This document shows, piece after piece, positions 48,933-55,099 of a stretch of DNA of 64,000 nucleotides (within the stretch, counting starts at the first letter, position 1; each line of letters begins with the position of its first letter). The notes beneath the pieces were generated by a model. It saw nothing but the letters and a program-made list of their open reading frames with translations. It did no database searches and was not told the DNA's origin. A program made the position numbers and the translations under genes. Origin of the DNA: an uncultured Anaerolineae bacterium (GTDB lineage: Bacteria > Chloroflexota > Anaerolineae > Anaerolineales > Villigracilaceae); NCBI GenBank assembly GCA_937120535.1, contig CAKZJX010000011.1, positions 1 to 64,000 on the forward strand. The letters run 5' to 3'.

Positions 48933-49187
48933 CTAGAACAGCGCATCGGTGACATCGCGCTCGCGCAAGACGCGTCGCTTCCAGTTGTTGAGCAGTGGCG
49001 CCAAGAAGGGCAGCAGTCTCATGCCGTAGTAGGGTGGCAAGATCGGCACCCCAACCAAATCACCGAAACTGATCAGCACAAACAGGTGCTCCAGATTGCC
49101 ACGATGCCGAGTCAGCGCTCGTACTTGATCATGGATCGCCATGCCATACAGGACGTCGCATAGGGTGTTGAGAAGGCCGACGTGCAT
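48933..49187 (-). CDS. Small conserved protein C of the ArsA-like cluster
   Basis: An 84-residue protein that shares the core E(H/N)LF-x-L-x5-GD-x-x-G-x-PI-x-PPYY-x-x-RLLP and the C-terminal WKRR-x-LRE with the proteins at 51217 and 51528. The segment around GDLVGVPILPPYY is moderately hydrophobic. It is the last gene of the minus-strand cluster, 42 bases after the second ATPase. ATG 49187 is preferred over an in-frame TTG at 49190. I know no function for this family. Confidence 0.75.
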   Translation of the reverse strand: MHVGLLNTLCDVLYGMAIHDQVRALTRHRGNLEHLFVLISFGDLVGVPILPPYYGMRLLPFLAPLLNNWKRRVLRERDVTDALF

Positions 49188-49229
49188 CAATCACCCAGGG
49201 AGAGAGACGCCGTTGCGCTTGCGGGCCGT

Positions 49230-50213
49230 TTAGACAAAGAGCTGGTTGCCCATGCGTTTCAACATCTCTACGCCGCGCACTTCGGTCTCGTAGAGGGGAA
49301 GCATGGCGCGCACCATGCCGTCGAATTTCTGCCAGATTTCTTCCAGATAGCGTTCTTGCATCTCAACGCGGTTCCAGACAAAATCGGGCGAACTTTCGGT
49401 CAATTGGGAACGTTCGATCAACATGTTGACGATCACCCCGCCGACGGGGATGCCGAAATCGTGGAACCAGCCGATAAAGCGGGTGATCACGGCGATCGGC
49501 AGCGCCTCAGCCAAGGTGATAAAGAAGAAGGCCGTCAGTTGTTCATTCGTGAGCAATTTGCGCGCTTGCCCCATGCGGTCGCGGAAAGCGATCAAGTAAT
49601 CCATCAGCGGATCGTCTTCTTTCTTCTTGGTGAAGGAGAGCATCTCTCGCAAGGTGCGGGCTTCTTGGCGGCTTTTGAGCATCTTGTTAACCCACAACGA
49701 GTATACCTTGGACATGCCTAGCAGGCGACGGGCATTGGCCGTGGGCGCAGTATCAAAGACGTACACGTCGTACTCGTCCTTGAGCATTAGGTCCACCATG
49801 TTTTCAAACATGGCTGACTCTTCAAAGGCCGGGTTCATGGTGGCCGATTCGACGAAGTCATCAGCTTTGGTGGAAATGTCAGCGAATTTGAGGAACCACT
49901 GGATCTTCTCGCGGATCTCCTGCTTGGAGCGCTCGATGGTGTCTTTGGTGTCGATCTCGTAGGCCCACAGATTAGGCGCACCGTTGACCAATGTGGGCTT
50001 TCCGAACACATCTTGCCCCAGTAGGCCGCTCAAGCTGTGTACGGGGTTGGTGGAAGCCAGCATCACGCGTCGCCCTTGGCCGGCCAGCCAGATGGCGGTT
50101 GCGCCGGCCAGAACCGTCTTGCCTACGCCGCCTTTGCCGCCAAAGAAAATGTAGCGCAAGCGCTGGTGGTCGTTCACGTATTTTCGCATAGAGATTTGGA
50201 TTGTTTGGGTCAT
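49230..50213 (-). CDS. ArsA/Get3-like ATPase, copy 2 (switch I Asp replaced by Asn)
   Basis: A 327-residue deviant Walker-type ATPase: GGKGGVGKT P-loop at residues 25-33 with the signature Lys27. Switch I reads STNPVHSL with Asn56 in place of the hydrolytic Asp of ArsA/Get3. Switch II reads DTAPTANAR (Asp154), lacking the usual GH. There is no cysteine in the whole protein, so neither the arsenite thiols of ArsA nor the Get3 zinc CxxC is present. AGGAGGAGG precedes ATG 50213. It lies 13 bases after copy 1. Confidence 0.87.
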   Translation of the reverse strand: MTQTIQISMRKYVNDHQRLRYIFFGGKGGVGKTVLAGATAIWLAGQGRRVMLASTNPVHSLSGLLGQDVFGKPTLVNGAPNLWAYEIDTKDTIERSKQEIREKIQWFLKFADISTKADDFVESATMNPAFEESAMFENMVDLMLKDEYDVYVFDTAPTANARRLLGMSKVYSLWVNKMLKSRQEARTLREMLSFTKKKEDDPLMDYLIAFRDRMGQARKLLTNEQLTAFFFITLAEALPIAVITRFIGWFHDFGIPVGGVIVNMLIERSQLTESSPDFVWNRVEMQERYLEEIWQKFDGMVRAMLPLYETEVRGVEMLKRMGNQLFV

Positions 50214-50226
50214 GGCCTCCTCCTCA

Positions 50227-51201
50227 CTACTTTCCGTACATGATTCCCGCCAGCCGGCTGATCATCTCCAAACCGGTTACATCGCGTTCTAGCTCGGGCA
50301 CACGGGCCACCACTTGATTGCCAAACATTTCGTCGATCTGGCGTAGATATTTTTCCTGCATCTGGATGCGATTGCGCAGGTAGGGAGGAATGTTTTGGTT
50401 GAGCAATTCGCGTGGGACAACGCGGTTGACTACGTATCCCGAGATGGGCACATCGAAGCGAGCAAACAGCTCGGCTGCCTTGCGCGTGTCAATCAGGATC
50501 ATCTCTTCTGGCACGATGACAAAGAAGAAGGCGGTTTTCTCTTTGTCGGTCAAGATACGCGAGGAAGCGTTGATCCGTCCGCGGATGTACTGCAACTCGC
50601 TCAAAATGCGATCCTCTTCGGTTTCCTTCTGCCGCTTCAAACGGGCAACCATTTCCTCATATTCGCGCATTTCCTCGCGCAGTTTGGTGATCTTATTGAT
50701 CCACTCGTCATAGACCTTGGCCATGCTTAGGTAGTAGAGCGCATGGCCCAGTGGAACCAGATCGTAGATGTAGTAATCGTATTTGCCTTCCACCACGATG
50801 TCCACCACGGCGTCAAAGATGGCGCTCTCTTCCATGGCCGGCTCAGCCGAAGCTGCCTGGATATATTGCTCGATCTCGTCGGGGATCGAGTCGAAGCCAT
50901 ACATATCCAGGATTTTGCGTCGGATCTCCTCTTGATAGGCCTTGATGTGCTGATCGGCATCGATCTCCTGAGCCCATAGGTTTTCCATGATCTGCACGGG
51001 GCCTTTGCCGAAAATATCGCGCTGGAAAATATCGGAGAGGCTGGCTTGAGGGTCCACCGAAAACACCAACACCTTCTTTCCTTGGGATGCCAGCCAATAA
51101 GCTGTGGCGGCGGAGAAGGTAGTTTTGCCCAGCCCTCCTTTACCACCAAACATGATATAGCGGCGTTCAGGGTGTTCTTCGAAGATTCGTCGGAGATTCA
51201 T
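50227..51201 (-). CDS. ArsA/Get3-like ATPase, copy 1
   Basis: A 324-residue paralogue of copy 2. P-loop GGKGGLGKTT (residues 19-28, signature Lys21), switch I SVDPQASL with the hydrolytic Asp50 kept, but switch II is DLVPLGHAL (Asp147), in which the usual DTAPTGH is altered. Residues about 165-215 form a charged coiled coil. It has no cysteine. The protein would dimerise with itself or with copy 2; the complementary losses in switch I and II suggest a heterodimer. GAGGAG precedes ATG 51201. Confidence 0.87.
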   Translation of the reverse strand: MNLRRIFEEHPERRYIMFGGKGGLGKTTFSAATAYWLASQGKKVLVFSVDPQASLSDIFQRDIFGKGPVQIMENLWAQEIDADQHIKAYQEEIRRKILDMYGFDSIPDEIEQYIQAASAEPAMEESAIFDAVVDIVVEGKYDYYIYDLVPLGHALYYLSMAKVYDEWINKITKLREEMREYEEMVARLKRQKETEEDRILSELQYIRGRINASSRILTDKEKTAFFFVIVPEEMILIDTRKAAELFARFDVPISGYVVNRVVPRELLNQNIPPYLRNRIQMQEKYLRQIDEMFGNQVVARVPELERDVTGLEMISRLAGIMYGK

Positions 51202-51216
51202 GGCGGCTCCTCACGC

Positions 51217-51483
51217 TTAGAACATGGCGTCGGAAACGTCTTTCTCGCGCAGTAACCGTCGTTTCCAAGTGGAGATCTGCGGAACGACATAGGGCAGCAG
51301 ACGCAGGCTATAGTAGGGCGGCAGGATGGGGATTCCGATCATATCGCCCATGGTGATCAGGATGAACAGATGCTCCATGCTGGCGCGTGTCCGCAGGGCA
51401 TAGCGGCTCATGTCGTGGGAGGCCATGCCGTAGATGATCTCTTTCAGGTTTTGCCAGAGGCTTTTGGATTCGTGTTCGCTCAT
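51217..51483 (-). CDS. Small conserved protein B of the ArsA-like cluster
   Basis: An 88-residue protein: basic/polar N terminus with SLWQNLKEIIYGMASHD, then RASMEHLFILITMGDMIGIPILPPYYSLRLLPYVVPQISTWKRRLLREKDVSDAMF. It is clearly paralogous to proteins A and C. AAGGA precedes ATG 51483; it ends 15 bases before ATPase copy 1. It may be a subunit, adaptor or client of the ATPases. Confidence 0.78.
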   Translation of the reverse strand: MSEHESKSLWQNLKEIIYGMASHDMSRYALRTRASMEHLFILITMGDMIGIPILPPYYSLRLLPYVVPQISTWKRRLLREKDVSDAMF

Positions 51484-51527
51484 AGATCCTTTCCTTCACA
51501 AAAAGTATGGTATAGACTGGAGAAGGT

Positions 51528-51815
51528 TTACAAACCTTCCAGATGGTAGTCATGTTCATCGGTAAATTCGCGCTCGCGCAGCATGCGTCGCTTCCAAAGA
51601 GAGATCTGGGGTACCAGGTAGGGCAATAAGCGCAGGCTGTAGTAAGGAGGGATGATTGGGAGCCCGATCATATCCCCCACGGTGCTTAGCATAAACAGAT
51701 TCTCCATACTGGTGCGCATTTCCACCGCATGCGACACGAACTCCAGGCTAAACATGCCGTAGAAGAACTCGCGCATCGCTTGCCAAAGCGACTTTTTTTC
51801 TGGTTGACTGGTCAT
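51528..51815 (-). CDS. Small conserved protein A of the ArsA-like cluster
   Basis: A 95-residue protein and the first gene of the cluster. It shares SLWQAMREFFYGMFS, RTSMENLFMLSTVGDMIGLPIIPPYYSLRLLPYLVPQISLWKRRMLRERE with B and C and ends in a longer acidic tail. There is no ribosome site before ATG 51815, and a perfect TATAAT lies nine bases upstream, so its message is probably leaderless. Confidence 0.78.
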   Translation of the reverse strand: MTSQPEKKSLWQAMREFFYGMFSLEFVSHAVEMRTSMENLFMLSTVGDMIGLPIIPPYYSLRLLPYLVPQISLWKRRMLREREFTDEHDYHLEGL

Positions 51816-51823
51816 AATTATAT

Positions 51824-51829
51824 ATTATA
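51824..51829 (-). promoter_or_regulatory. -10 box of the ArsA-like cluster, leaderless type
   Basis: Minus-strand TATAAT, eight bases before ATG 51815, in an AT-rich gap of 70 bases shared with the divergent gene at 51886. The -35 box is weak. Confidence 0.5.
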
Positions 51830-51885: not shown

Positions 51886-52536
51886 ATGGACTCGCAAACG
51901 ATCATTCTGGCGGCTGTGGTAGTCTTCATGGGATGGTTTGGGTTGGGTATGATCTACAACTTGCGCCGCGGCGATCGCATCTTACGCTGGATGCAAGACG
52001 GTTTGCCCTTGATCGGTCAACGAACCACATTTCGCTGGCTCGGGTCTTCAGTAGCCGAAATGGGCATCGCTAAAGCCAAACGTCCCTTTCATCGGATGGA
52101 CGTGCTCCTTGTCCTGAAACCGCGCGATGTGTTTTGGATGGCGTTACTGGCATTGATTCAAGGACGTGACGACATGATCATCTTTCGCGCTGCTCTCAGC
52201 ACGCCTCCGCTGCTCGACCTCGAACTGGCCGATCCGAAAAGCTGGACTGGGCGTGACGTCCTAAGGAAACTCGCTCAACGCGGCTGGGAAGTGACTAATT
52301 ATCAGGGCATGCGCTTGATGGCCCCGCGTGGCCTGCTTCAGCTGGCCATAGAAACCATGGATCGCCTGAGCGGTCCAATGCAAGCCCTCTCCCCACGCTA
52401 CATCCGTCTCAGCTTACGCAAGATGGCTCCGAACATCGAAATTCATCTGCCTTTTCCTAATCCGAGCCAGACCGATGCCAGGGCGTATTTTGAGTCGTTG
52501 TGCGATCTTGGGCGCGCCGTGGTCGAGCGAAGGTAG
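51886..52536 (+). CDS. Membrane-anchored hypothetical protein divergent from the ArsA-like cluster
   Basis: A 216-residue protein: one N-terminal membrane helix (residues 5-24), then a soluble alpha/beta domain with basic segments (RRGDRILRWMQDGLP, FRWLGSSVAEMGIAKAKRPFHRMDVLLVLKPRDVFWMALLAL). No known motif. It shares its 70-bp upstream region with the ArsA-like cluster and may be coregulated with it. AGGTGATGGT near ATG 51886 gives a modest ribosome site. Confidence 0.65.
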   Translation: MDSQTIILAAVVVFMGWFGLGMIYNLRRGDRILRWMQDGLPLIGQRTTFRWLGSSVAEMGIAKAKRPFHRMDVLLVLKPRDVFWMALLALIQGRDDMIIFRAALSTPPLLDLELADPKSWTGRDVLRKLAQRGWEVTNYQGMRLMAPRGLLQLAIETMDRLSGPMQALSPRYIRLSLRKMAPNIEIHLPFPNPSQTDARAYFESLCDLGRAVVERR

Positions 52537-52642: not shown

Positions 52643-54532
52643 TTAGTCGGTGGCCGCTGGGGCCTGCTGTGCCGTTCCACCCTTGGCGTATCGCTGATAG
52701 GCTTTGTAGCCGTCCCAACCGATCACCAGGGCGGTCAGGAAGAGCAAAATGGCAATGACGATCATCGCCCAGGCGCCCACTGCCGCCGTGCCGCCTTTGG
52801 GCACGATGGTGACAAATAGGTTGCGGGCTGTCACCAGCGTGGCCGCTAAGGTGGTCAGGTACATAAAGAGCATGGGCCAGAGAGCGAAAGCAGGATTGCG
52901 GCGTTGCTCTCGCAACCAGACCGTGACAATCAGCAGGCTAAGGGCCGCCATCAGTTGGTTGGCCGAGCCAAATAGCTGCCATAGATACACCCAGGTGCCG
53001 GTCAACACCAAGATCATGGTCAGCAACATCGAGGCAATGGTGGAGACGTGTATGTTCTTGAACAATGGCACCTGGTCGCCGATCCACTCGGACAGGGTAA
53101 CGCGCATGACGCGGAAGATCAGTTGGGTCACGGTCAACACAATCACCATGAAGGCCCCAAAGCCGAGTGCTGTACCAAACGGTCGGAATCCTTCACCGAA
53201 GATGACCGAGAGCAGCGAGCCCACGCCGGCCGCGAAGCGACCCGCACCGCCGCCAGTTCCAGCGATGGAGACGGCCACCAGCGACAGCAAACCCAGCGTG
53301 TTCTCGGTGAACATGGCGCCGGCGCCGACCGGAAGGGCATCGGTCTCATACTCCAACTGGCGCGCCGTACCGATCGAGCCAAACAGGGCATGCCAACCGG
53401 AGATGGCGCCGCAGGCGATGGTCACGAACAGCATCGGCCAGATGGGTTGCCAGGCCTTGGTCGGATCGTAAGCGAAGCCCCACGTCCTAACCGGTTCCAG
53501 GGCAAACGCGCCTATTTCAGGTCGCAGGAAGGGAGCCAACACCGCACCTACTGCGCCTGACAGGATGGTGATCAGGGTGATCCAGAAACCAATGTAGTTG
53601 ACTGGTTGGGCGAAGCGCCAGATGGGCAGGGTGGCAGCCAGATATGAGAAAGCGAGGATAAACAGCGCCCAGAACAGGTAGGAGGGCATGGTCTTGATGG
53701 CGCCGGTCTCCGCATTGTAAAGGGCCGTGGTGGGGCGTTTGCCATCCGGACCCGGAGGTGGGATGCGCGGGTCGGCGTTGGTTGGGTCGTAAACCACCAT
53801 CACCGCTTGGCCACCGGTGATCTGATCGACAGCTTTGTTCAGAGCGGCGATGGAACCGTTAATCGGGCCCACCCATTGCCAGGCTCGGGTCTCTGGATGT
53901 TGGGTTGCTCCAAAGGGGCCGAAGATCATGGCTGCCAAGACCACGATCACCACAATGGCGGTCACTGCGATCAAGTCCATCTTCCAGCGATAGAGCATTT
54001 GGCCGGCCAAGAAGCCCATCACGCCGAGCATGATGATGCCAAGTGGCACGTCGGGGCGAGCGGCCATCAGAGCGCTCATGATGCCCATGAAGGCGCCGGC
54101 GACCAACATCAGGTAGAAGAAGATAAAGATGAACAAGATGATGCGGGTGCGCGGCGCGATTAGGCGATGGCTGATGGCGCTCAGGCTATTTCCATCGTTG
54201 CGGACGGCGACCATGATCGCCGTATAGTCGCTCACCCAACCGATGAACGATACTCCCAACACCAGCCAGATCAGGGCCGGTAGCCATCCCCAAATGTTGG
54301 CCGCTGTAATCGGACCGACGATCGGGCCGGCGGCGGCGATGGACTTGAAGTGATAGCCGTAGAGCACGTTGCGGCTGGTGGGTATGAAGTCCACGCCGTC
54401 CATGTAAAGGCGGGCCGGAGTAGCACGCTTGGGATCGGACTGGATGATGTTTCGGTCAATGCTGCGGGCGTAGAAGTTGTAGATCACATAGATGGCAATC
54501 GCGGCAATTACAACGATCCATAGAGTATTCAT
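52643..54532 (-). CDS. cstA: Carbon starvation protein CstA, pyruvate/peptide transporter family
   Basis: A 629-residue membrane protein with about 16 helices. ARLYMDGVDFIPTSRNVLYGYHFKSIAAAGPIVGPITAA is the CstA signature, along with GWVSDYTAIMVAVRNDGNSLSAI and the CstA C-terminal domain. CstA proteins import pyruvate or peptides when carbon is scarce. AAAGGAG precedes ATG 54532. A thioredoxin-fold gene lies 159 bp upstream on the same strand. Confidence 0.94.
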   Translation of the reverse strand: MNTLWIVVIAAIAIYVIYNFYARSIDRNIIQSDPKRATPARLYMDGVDFIPTSRNVLYGYHFKSIAAAGPIVGPITAANIWGWLPALIWLVLGVSFIGWVSDYTAIMVAVRNDGNSLSAISHRLIAPRTRIILFIFIFFYLMLVAGAFMGIMSALMAARPDVPLGIIMLGVMGFLAGQMLYRWKMDLIAVTAIVVIVVLAAMIFGPFGATQHPETRAWQWVGPINGSIAALNKAVDQITGGQAVMVVYDPTNADPRIPPPGPDGKRPTTALYNAETGAIKTMPSYLFWALFILAFSYLAATLPIWRFAQPVNYIGFWITLITILSGAVGAVLAPFLRPEIGAFALEPVRTWGFAYDPTKAWQPIWPMLFVTIACGAISGWHALFGSIGTARQLEYETDALPVGAGAMFTENTLGLLSLVAVSIAGTGGGAGRFAAGVGSLLSVIFGEGFRPFGTALGFGAFMVIVLTVTQLIFRVMRVTLSEWIGDQVPLFKNIHVSTIASMLLTMILVLTGTWVYLWQLFGSANQLMAALSLLIVTVWLREQRRNPAFALWPMLFMYLTTLAATLVTARNLFVTIVPKGGTAAVGAWAMIVIAILLFLTALVIGWDGYKAYQRYAKGGTAQQAPAATD

Positions 54533-54691: not shown

Positions 54692-55099
54692 TTAGGGCGC
54701 TGGGACAGTTGCCGGAAGGCTCGGTTCGCTCAACAAGCGCTCAATCTCCTCGGCTGCTTGTTGCAACGCTGCCGCGCCGCTGAAACGAGAACGACGATTC
54801 ACGATAACCGCCGGATAGCGGCGAGTACCATAGCGCAAAGACTTGACCACACCTTCCACCGAAGCCACATCGATCACCTTGATCACCAGCTGGTCGCAGT
54901 AGCGTCGAAACATGTCATGCACCCACTGGGAGATGGTCGAATACTCTTGCTTTAGGTCCTCAGGCAAACTGCTTTCGATCTGTTCTTGCTGAACTGTATT
55001 GGATTTGCCCATCTCGCGCCAGGCGATCTCACAATGCATGCAGTGATAGAAGGCGGTAGGGGCATAGGCAATGATTTCTACCAGTAAAGGCTTGCTCAT
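54692..55099 (-). CDS. Thioredoxin-fold-like small protein
   Basis: A 135-residue soluble protein. LVEIIAYAPTAFYHCMHCEIAW near the N terminus has a CxxC pair (CMHC), and YGTRRYPAVIVNRRSRFSGA has the Pro of a thioredoxin cis-proline loop, so a thioredoxin-like fold is likely. No signal peptide. GAGGAG precedes ATG 55099. It is preceded by a leader of more than 300 bases and followed by cstA, so both may be cotranscribed. Confidence 0.65.
   Translation of the reverse strand: MSKPLLVEIIAYAPTAFYHCMHCEIAWREMGKSNTVQQEQIESSLPEDLKQEYSTISQWVHDMFRRYCDQLVIKVIDVASVEGVVKSLRYGTRRYPAVIVNRRSRFSGAAALQQAAEEIERLLSEPSLPATVPAP

Follow-up and report, generated by a model that had tools for sequence, protein, structure and literature searches.

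Single-domain ArsA homologues encoded in operons with the carbon-starvation (pyruvate/peptide) transporter CstA, a small protein of ~90 amino acids (aa) named CstX and, in archaea, a ~210-aa protein named CstY have been described previously (Castillo and Saier, 2010; PMC2963123), and the ArsA homologue was suggested to power CstA, with CstX linking the two. Adjacent ArsA pairs were recorded there in cluster 15 (Pyrobaculum arsenaticum and Symbiobacterium), and the D of the SXD motif was found to be replaceable by N only; the ATPases were treated as possible homodimers, and the pairs and the D/N exchange were left unconnected. The transporter ArsB, which is otherwise proton-driven, can use ATP when paired with ArsA (PMC13381914). 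CstA of Escherichia coli has no ArsA and takes its energy from the proton gradient alone (PMC7730263), and it requires the small protein YbdD (PMC5847655). Here, we analysed a 64,000-nucleotide stretch (the window; contig CAKZJX010000011.1, positions 1 to 64,000) from an uncultured Anaerolineae bacterium, which encodes two adjacent Get3/ArsA-family ATPases, ATPase 1 and ATPase 2, together with three small proteins (A, B and C) and a CstA-family transporter. This two-ATPase operon is real and conserved, and represents a form of the known CstA-CstX-ArsA system that had been overlooked.

The cluster contains five minus-strand genes in the order A (51528..51815; 95 aa), B (51217..51483; 88 aa), ATPase 1 (50227..51201; 324 aa), ATPase 2 (49230..50213; 327 aa) and C (48933..49190; 85 aa), which are separated by 44, 15, 13 and 39 bp, in agreement with an earlier reading of the DNA made without database searches (the sequence-only reading). 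About 0.8 kb upstream, the same strand encodes the CstA-family transporter (52643..54532, minus; 629 aa; PF02554, 343 bits), with which the two ATPases probably work. The sequence-only reading had reported that no transporter was near, which is correct for ArsB, as is the absence of the regulator ArsR, but CstA was missed. The window shares with the described system the ~330-aa single-domain ATPases, the CstA gene in the cluster and the lack of ars genes, and the association of CstA with such an ATPase is not new, since it was already proposed (PMC2963123). What appears to be new is the two-ATPase variant with losses split between the subunits. Absent from the earlier description are the invariant division of Asp and Asn between the subunits, the switch II losses that match it, a separate two-ATPase clade and a CstX that lacks the Cys-Cys (CC) end. 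A literature search that covered few subscription journals found no paper describing the Asp/Asn split.

The best solved relatives of both ATPases by sequence are archaeal Get3 proteins (PDB codes: 3ug6 and 3zq6). Single-chain structure models were built, and the AlphaFold2 model of ATPase 2 (predicted local distance difference test score (pLDDT) 85.5; predicted template modelling score (pTM) 0.84) is closest in fold to TRC40/Get3 of M. thermautotrophicus (3zq6; Z 32.5 over 282 residues). Both proteins score above the cut-off in PF02374 (253 bits for ATPase 1 and 229 bits for ATPase 2) and TIGR00345 (240 and 219 bits, respectively). Canonical Get3/ArsA proteins carry STDPAHSL in switch I and DTAPTGH in switch II within one chain. 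In the window, ATPase 1 has SVDPQASL, with the switch I aspartate at Asp50, and an altered switch II, DLVPLGHAL; ATPase 2 has STNPVHSL, with Asn56 (codon AAC) at the corresponding place, and the switch II DTAPTANAR. These motifs are as the sequence-only reading gave them. Both ATPases retain the deviant Walker A motif GKGG.GK, the two lysines of which, including the cross-dimer lysine, are invariant.

Homologues came from Chloroflexota loci and from 84,980 scanned species, which yielded 463 relatives of the small protein, the best 80 of which were read. The pair was found together in 60 relatives, and in all 110 loci that hold both genes, which are not all independent because some genomes were taken twice, the gene next to ATPase 1, downstream and on the same strand, is ATPase 2. 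No locus examined had ATPase 2 without ATPase 1; ATPase 1 stands alone in 8 loci, and those with inspected ends stop at or shortly after this gene. The Asp/Asn split put forward by the sequence-only reading is conserved without exception: position 50 is Asp in 92 of 92 distinct ATPase 1 sequences, and position 56 is Asn in 86 of 86 distinct ATPase 2 sequences. In switch II of ATPase 1, which reads DLVPLGH, or DMPPFGH in a divergent group, D147, P150, G152 and H153 are invariant, so that GH is retained, and the T-A-T positions of TAPT are replaced. ATPase 2 retains DTAPT (DTAAV in a divergent group), with AN in place of GH. As judged from these sequences, the complementary losses at the active sites are genuine, ancient and fixed, and the conservation of both residues and gene order far exceeds chance. 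By their record names, mostly those of metagenome bins, the carriers belong to at least eight phyla (Chloroflexota, Acidobacteriota, Gemmatimonadota, Pseudomonadota, Thermodesulfobacteriota, Actinomycetota, Bacillota and Bacteroidota); individual assignments may be in error, yet the distribution is broad.

Neither ATPase of the window contains a cysteine, as had been noticed, and this property is typical rather than strict among the homologues, as 85/92 ATPase 1 and 72/86 ATPase 2 sequences are cysteine-free. The CxxC zinc site is replaced by IPPYLRNR or PDFVWNR, and a cysteine occurs there in only one of 92 sequences. The segment that corresponds to the TRC40 insert, which binds clients, is strongly hydrophilic, with a mean grand average of hydropathy of -1.66 in ATPase 1 and -1.40 in ATPase 2, compared with -0.58 in the reference, which consists of two archaeal Get3 proteins only.

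A second type of operon places the pair in context. Actinomycetota were searched for cory-CC-star proteins, 20 loci were read, and plasmid records were added. These one-ATPase operons (Actinomycetota; plasmids of Paracoccus, Pseudochrobactrum and Cytobacillus) encode CstA, a CstX that ends in Cys-Cys and one ATPase. They share with the window the CstA, CstX-like and Get3/ArsA-like genes in the same order, but differ in the single ATPase with intact motifs, the CC-ending CstX and a separate CstA clade. Switch I is STDPAH in 19/19 of their ATPases and switch II is DTAP[TS]GH in all 17 in which the motif was found, two being unresolved by the pattern. In a quick maximum-likelihood tree with some long branches, ATPase 1, ATPase 2 and the one-ATPase group form separate clades (support 99 each), and ATPase 1 and ATPase 2 are sister clades (support 97), apart from the one-ATPase group and from archaeal Get3. 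The CstA proteins of the two-ATPase loci also form one clade (support 100; locus L260, cut by a contig end, was counted as a two-ATPase locus), and both trees sort by operon type. Because the one-ATPase operons keep both motifs together, the pair looks as if two duplicates had divided the labour through their losses. Most economically, an intact ATPase would have been duplicated once, and the two copies would have undergone opposite losses that became fixed before the spread over phyla.

CstA follows the pair closely. It lies within the fetched stretch in 89/110 two-ATPase loci, and the order (thioredoxin-like)-CstA-A-B-ATPase 1-ATPase 2 recurs across Chloroflexota and outside. Among 400 evenly sampled Chloroflexota genomes, which are related to one another, the small protein is present in 39, CstA in 39 and both in 35 (Fisher p 2.6e-41), and CstA is also present in 20 of the 21 families that bear the small protein. 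The four CstA genomes without CstX comprise two with another CstA class, one with a truncated CstX beside CstA at a contig end, and one in which the contig ends 84 bp past CstA. PF04328 (YbdD-type) small proteins were found in 0/400 of these genomes, and YbdD was dropped as a candidate partner there. No solved structure resembling the window CstA by sequence was found.

The three small proteins are paralogues of one another, as the sequence-only reading had them, with no further copies in the genome, and their closest relatives are in Anaerolineales and other Chloroflexota records. A small protein is present in 109/110 two-ATPase loci, and conservation of the small genes with the ATPases is therefore confirmed. 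Of the complete five-gene order, the ATPase 1-ATPase 2 core holds in all 110 loci with both genes, but the third small gene does not: three CstX copies occur in 24 of these loci and two in 73. A occupies a conserved position between CstA and ATPase 1; B, directly upstream of ATPase 1, is the most conserved of the three; and C is restricted to a subset of relatives. Lone CstX-like genes, mostly of the C type and with no ATPase in the fetched stretch, were also observed (L071, L078, L080, L083 and L107). The AlphaFold2 model of B (pLDDT 80; pTM 0.41) is a helical hairpin of helices 3–48 and 56–79 with a turn at the conserved PILPPYY. The hydrophobic segment of CstX is weak (best 19-residue mean 1.25 to 1.73) and located in the middle of the protein, unlike a C-terminal anchor. 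We make no claim of a novel fold, because the Foldseek search against the PDB gave nothing significant with a model whose pTM is so low. A search of plasmids with B matched nothing.

A, B and C resemble the published CstX (PMC2963123) in size, place and hydrophobic middle, a likeness by description that is accompanied by weak matches to the cory-CC-star profile NF041419 (35, 34 and 27 bits, respectively; cut-off 80). The CC-star proteins of the one-ATPase operons align with them. The profile is thus related, but membership of cory-CC-star was rejected on both the cut-off and the CC end, since none of 267 CstX-like sequences from two-ATPase loci ends in CC; no protein above the NF041419 cut-off was found in the 400 Chloroflexota genomes. 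A C-terminal Cys-Cys is shared by three dissimilar-looking small CstA partners, namely YbdD, YjiX and the CstX of one-ATPase operons (L214:6183-6380; L215:2877-3080 in E. coli; L216-L232). A, B and C are better read as CstX partners that stand between the ATPase and the transporter.

Two further genes accompany CstA. A divergent gene between CstA and A (51886..52536, plus; 216 aa) matched no Pfam or NCBIfam family and resembles CstY (PMC2963123), by description only, in its size and its single N-terminal transmembrane segment; homologues occur in 82/110 two-ATPase loci. Directly upstream of CstA, a thioredoxin-like protein (54692..55099, minus; 135 aa) bears the motif HCMHC and matches PF07511 (29.5 bits; cut-off 24.1). 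Its homologues occur in 52/110 two-ATPase loci, and 57 of 58 homologues carry a CxxC motif, mostly CxHC; redox control or maturation of the transporter is possible. A scan for promoters and terminators gave signals no better than those of shuffled sequences.

Among other known systems, BagA/BagB of M. tuberculosis (Rv3679/Rv3680) also consist of two adjacent Get3-like ATPases, which were solved as one complex (PDB codes: 6bs3-6bs5). The similarity to the window is remote (NF053622, 47–51 bits against a cut-off of 400; NF053621, 40 bits against 521), and orthology is ruled out on these scores. We know of no link between BagA/BagB and CstA. ArsA of ArsAB likewise has the Get3/ArsA fold beside a secondary transporter and two ATPase halves, but its halves are fused, it has metalloid-binding cysteines and its partner is ArsB. 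Separate tandem two-domain ArsA proteins (L021, L022 and L023) are encoded in the relatives G022, G006 and G031, unlinked to the CstA system. CstA-YbdD and BtsT-YjiX-(YjiA) of E. coli combine a CstA-family transporter with a small CC-ending partner and have no Get3/ArsA ATPase. The btsT-yjiX-yjiA operon (L215:1910-5280) has a similar layout with a P-loop GTPase of another family, which is a possible convergent parallel.

Taken together, ATPase 1 and ATPase 2 are probably the obligate partners of a Get3/ArsA-type heterodimer, which would serve CstA through CstX. A heterodimer would be the simplest reading of the pair, since ATPase 2 was not encountered without ATPase 1; the joint complex of the two Get3-like ATPases of M. 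tuberculosis (6bs3) also speaks for it. ATPase 1 would supply the hydrolysis-competent site, in which its Asp50 is joined by the lysine that ATPase 2 extends across the dimer. With Asn for the switch I Asp, ATPase 2 would bind ATP and hydrolyse it poorly, and might act as a stable ATP clamp or a timer, like the degenerate site of heterodimeric ABC transporters. This assignment is suggested by the complementary losses, by the retained lysines and by the D57N mutation of Get3, which impairs hydrolysis but not nucleotide binding (PMC6633398). The CstX-like proteins A, B and C would connect the pair to CstA in the membrane, and the ATPase cycle would energise or gate transport, as ArsA does for ArsB. 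The analysis establishes the fold and family, the fixed Asp/Asn split, the gene order, the co-occurrence with CstA and the history as sister clades; from these we infer heterodimerisation, the choice of hydrolysing site, the coupling to transport and the substrate. ATP coupling of CstA is a plausible addition and not a necessity, because ArsA powers ArsB, yet CstA of E. coli is proton-driven. A more specific and more tentative possibility is that a Get3/ArsA-type ATPase evolved into an obligate asymmetric heterodimer, in which an Asp subunit hydrolyses ATP and an Asn subunit traps it, and which drives or gates, via CstX, a CstA-family carboxylate/peptide transporter; this would be an ArsAB-like ATP-powered importer with a degenerate-site ATPase, found in many bacterial phyla.

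Several points weigh against a heterodimer that serves CstA. CstA lies outside the fetched stretch in 21/110 loci and, in some genomes (G252 and G320), far away. ATP is not required throughout the CstA family, given the proton-driven transport in E. coli without ArsA (PMC7730263). ATPase 1 might also hydrolyse poorly, because its switch II is degenerate.

The main competing explanation, unlikely but to be taken seriously, is that the two ATPases are devoted to the assembly, insertion or quality control of CstA and CstX, with ATP spent on placing or maturing the transporter and not on driving transport. The nearest fold is that of Get3, CstX has a hydrophobic hairpin and CstA of E. coli requires no energy source beyond the proton gradient, all of which favour such a role. 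So does the arrangement in E. coli, where btsT is followed by the small-protein gene yjiX and the P-loop GTPase gene yjiA; P-loop NTPases of the wider class that includes the yjiA product often act in maturation. The hydrophilic TRC40-insert segment and the lost CxxC argue against it, although a specialised client that is not bound in a groove would still be compatible. The same two features also count against a general role like that of Get3, in which the pair would target tail-anchored or other membrane proteins and A, B and C would be its clients or adaptors. The Get3 fold and the hydrophobic segment of the adjoining small proteins agree with general targeting, but the pair is strictly tied to one transporter family, CstA, and the segment of CstX is weak and mid-protein, which makes this explanation improbable. 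The sequence-only reading had the pair handling the small proteins or other membrane clients; with the insert hydrophilic, the CxxC gone and the small proteins tracking CstA, the pair should instead be regarded as serving CstA.

It is somewhat less improbable than general targeting that the pair senses nucleotides or the energy state and turns CstA on or off, with slow hydrolysis only timing the signal. Slow turnover is suggested by Asn for Asp in one subunit and by the changed switch II of the other, and the thioredoxin-like neighbour with its CxHC could add redox control; hydrolysis is nevertheless probably used, because the switch I Asp of ATPase 1 and the P-loops of both proteins show strict conservation. 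A role in the efflux of arsenicals or other metalloids, for which only the family-level name of PF02374 speaks, is extremely improbable. No cysteine is conserved, ars genes are lacking among the neighbouring genes examined (ArsB, Acr3, ArsP, ArsD and ArsR are all absent), and the two proteins score 110 and 111 bits with TIGR04291, for which the cut-off is 650. An arsenite pump is ruled out by the missing cysteines and ars genes, as the sequence-only reading had concluded.

CstA transporters are widespread, and in E. coli a small partner protein is needed for pyruvate uptake. The pair is a natural experiment, in which the Asp of switch I and the motif of switch II have been parted into two proteins that are kept together in many phyla. 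It would allow us to ask whether two hydrolysing sites are required in Get3/ArsA ATPases, and whether such ATPases can power secondary transporters other than ArsB.

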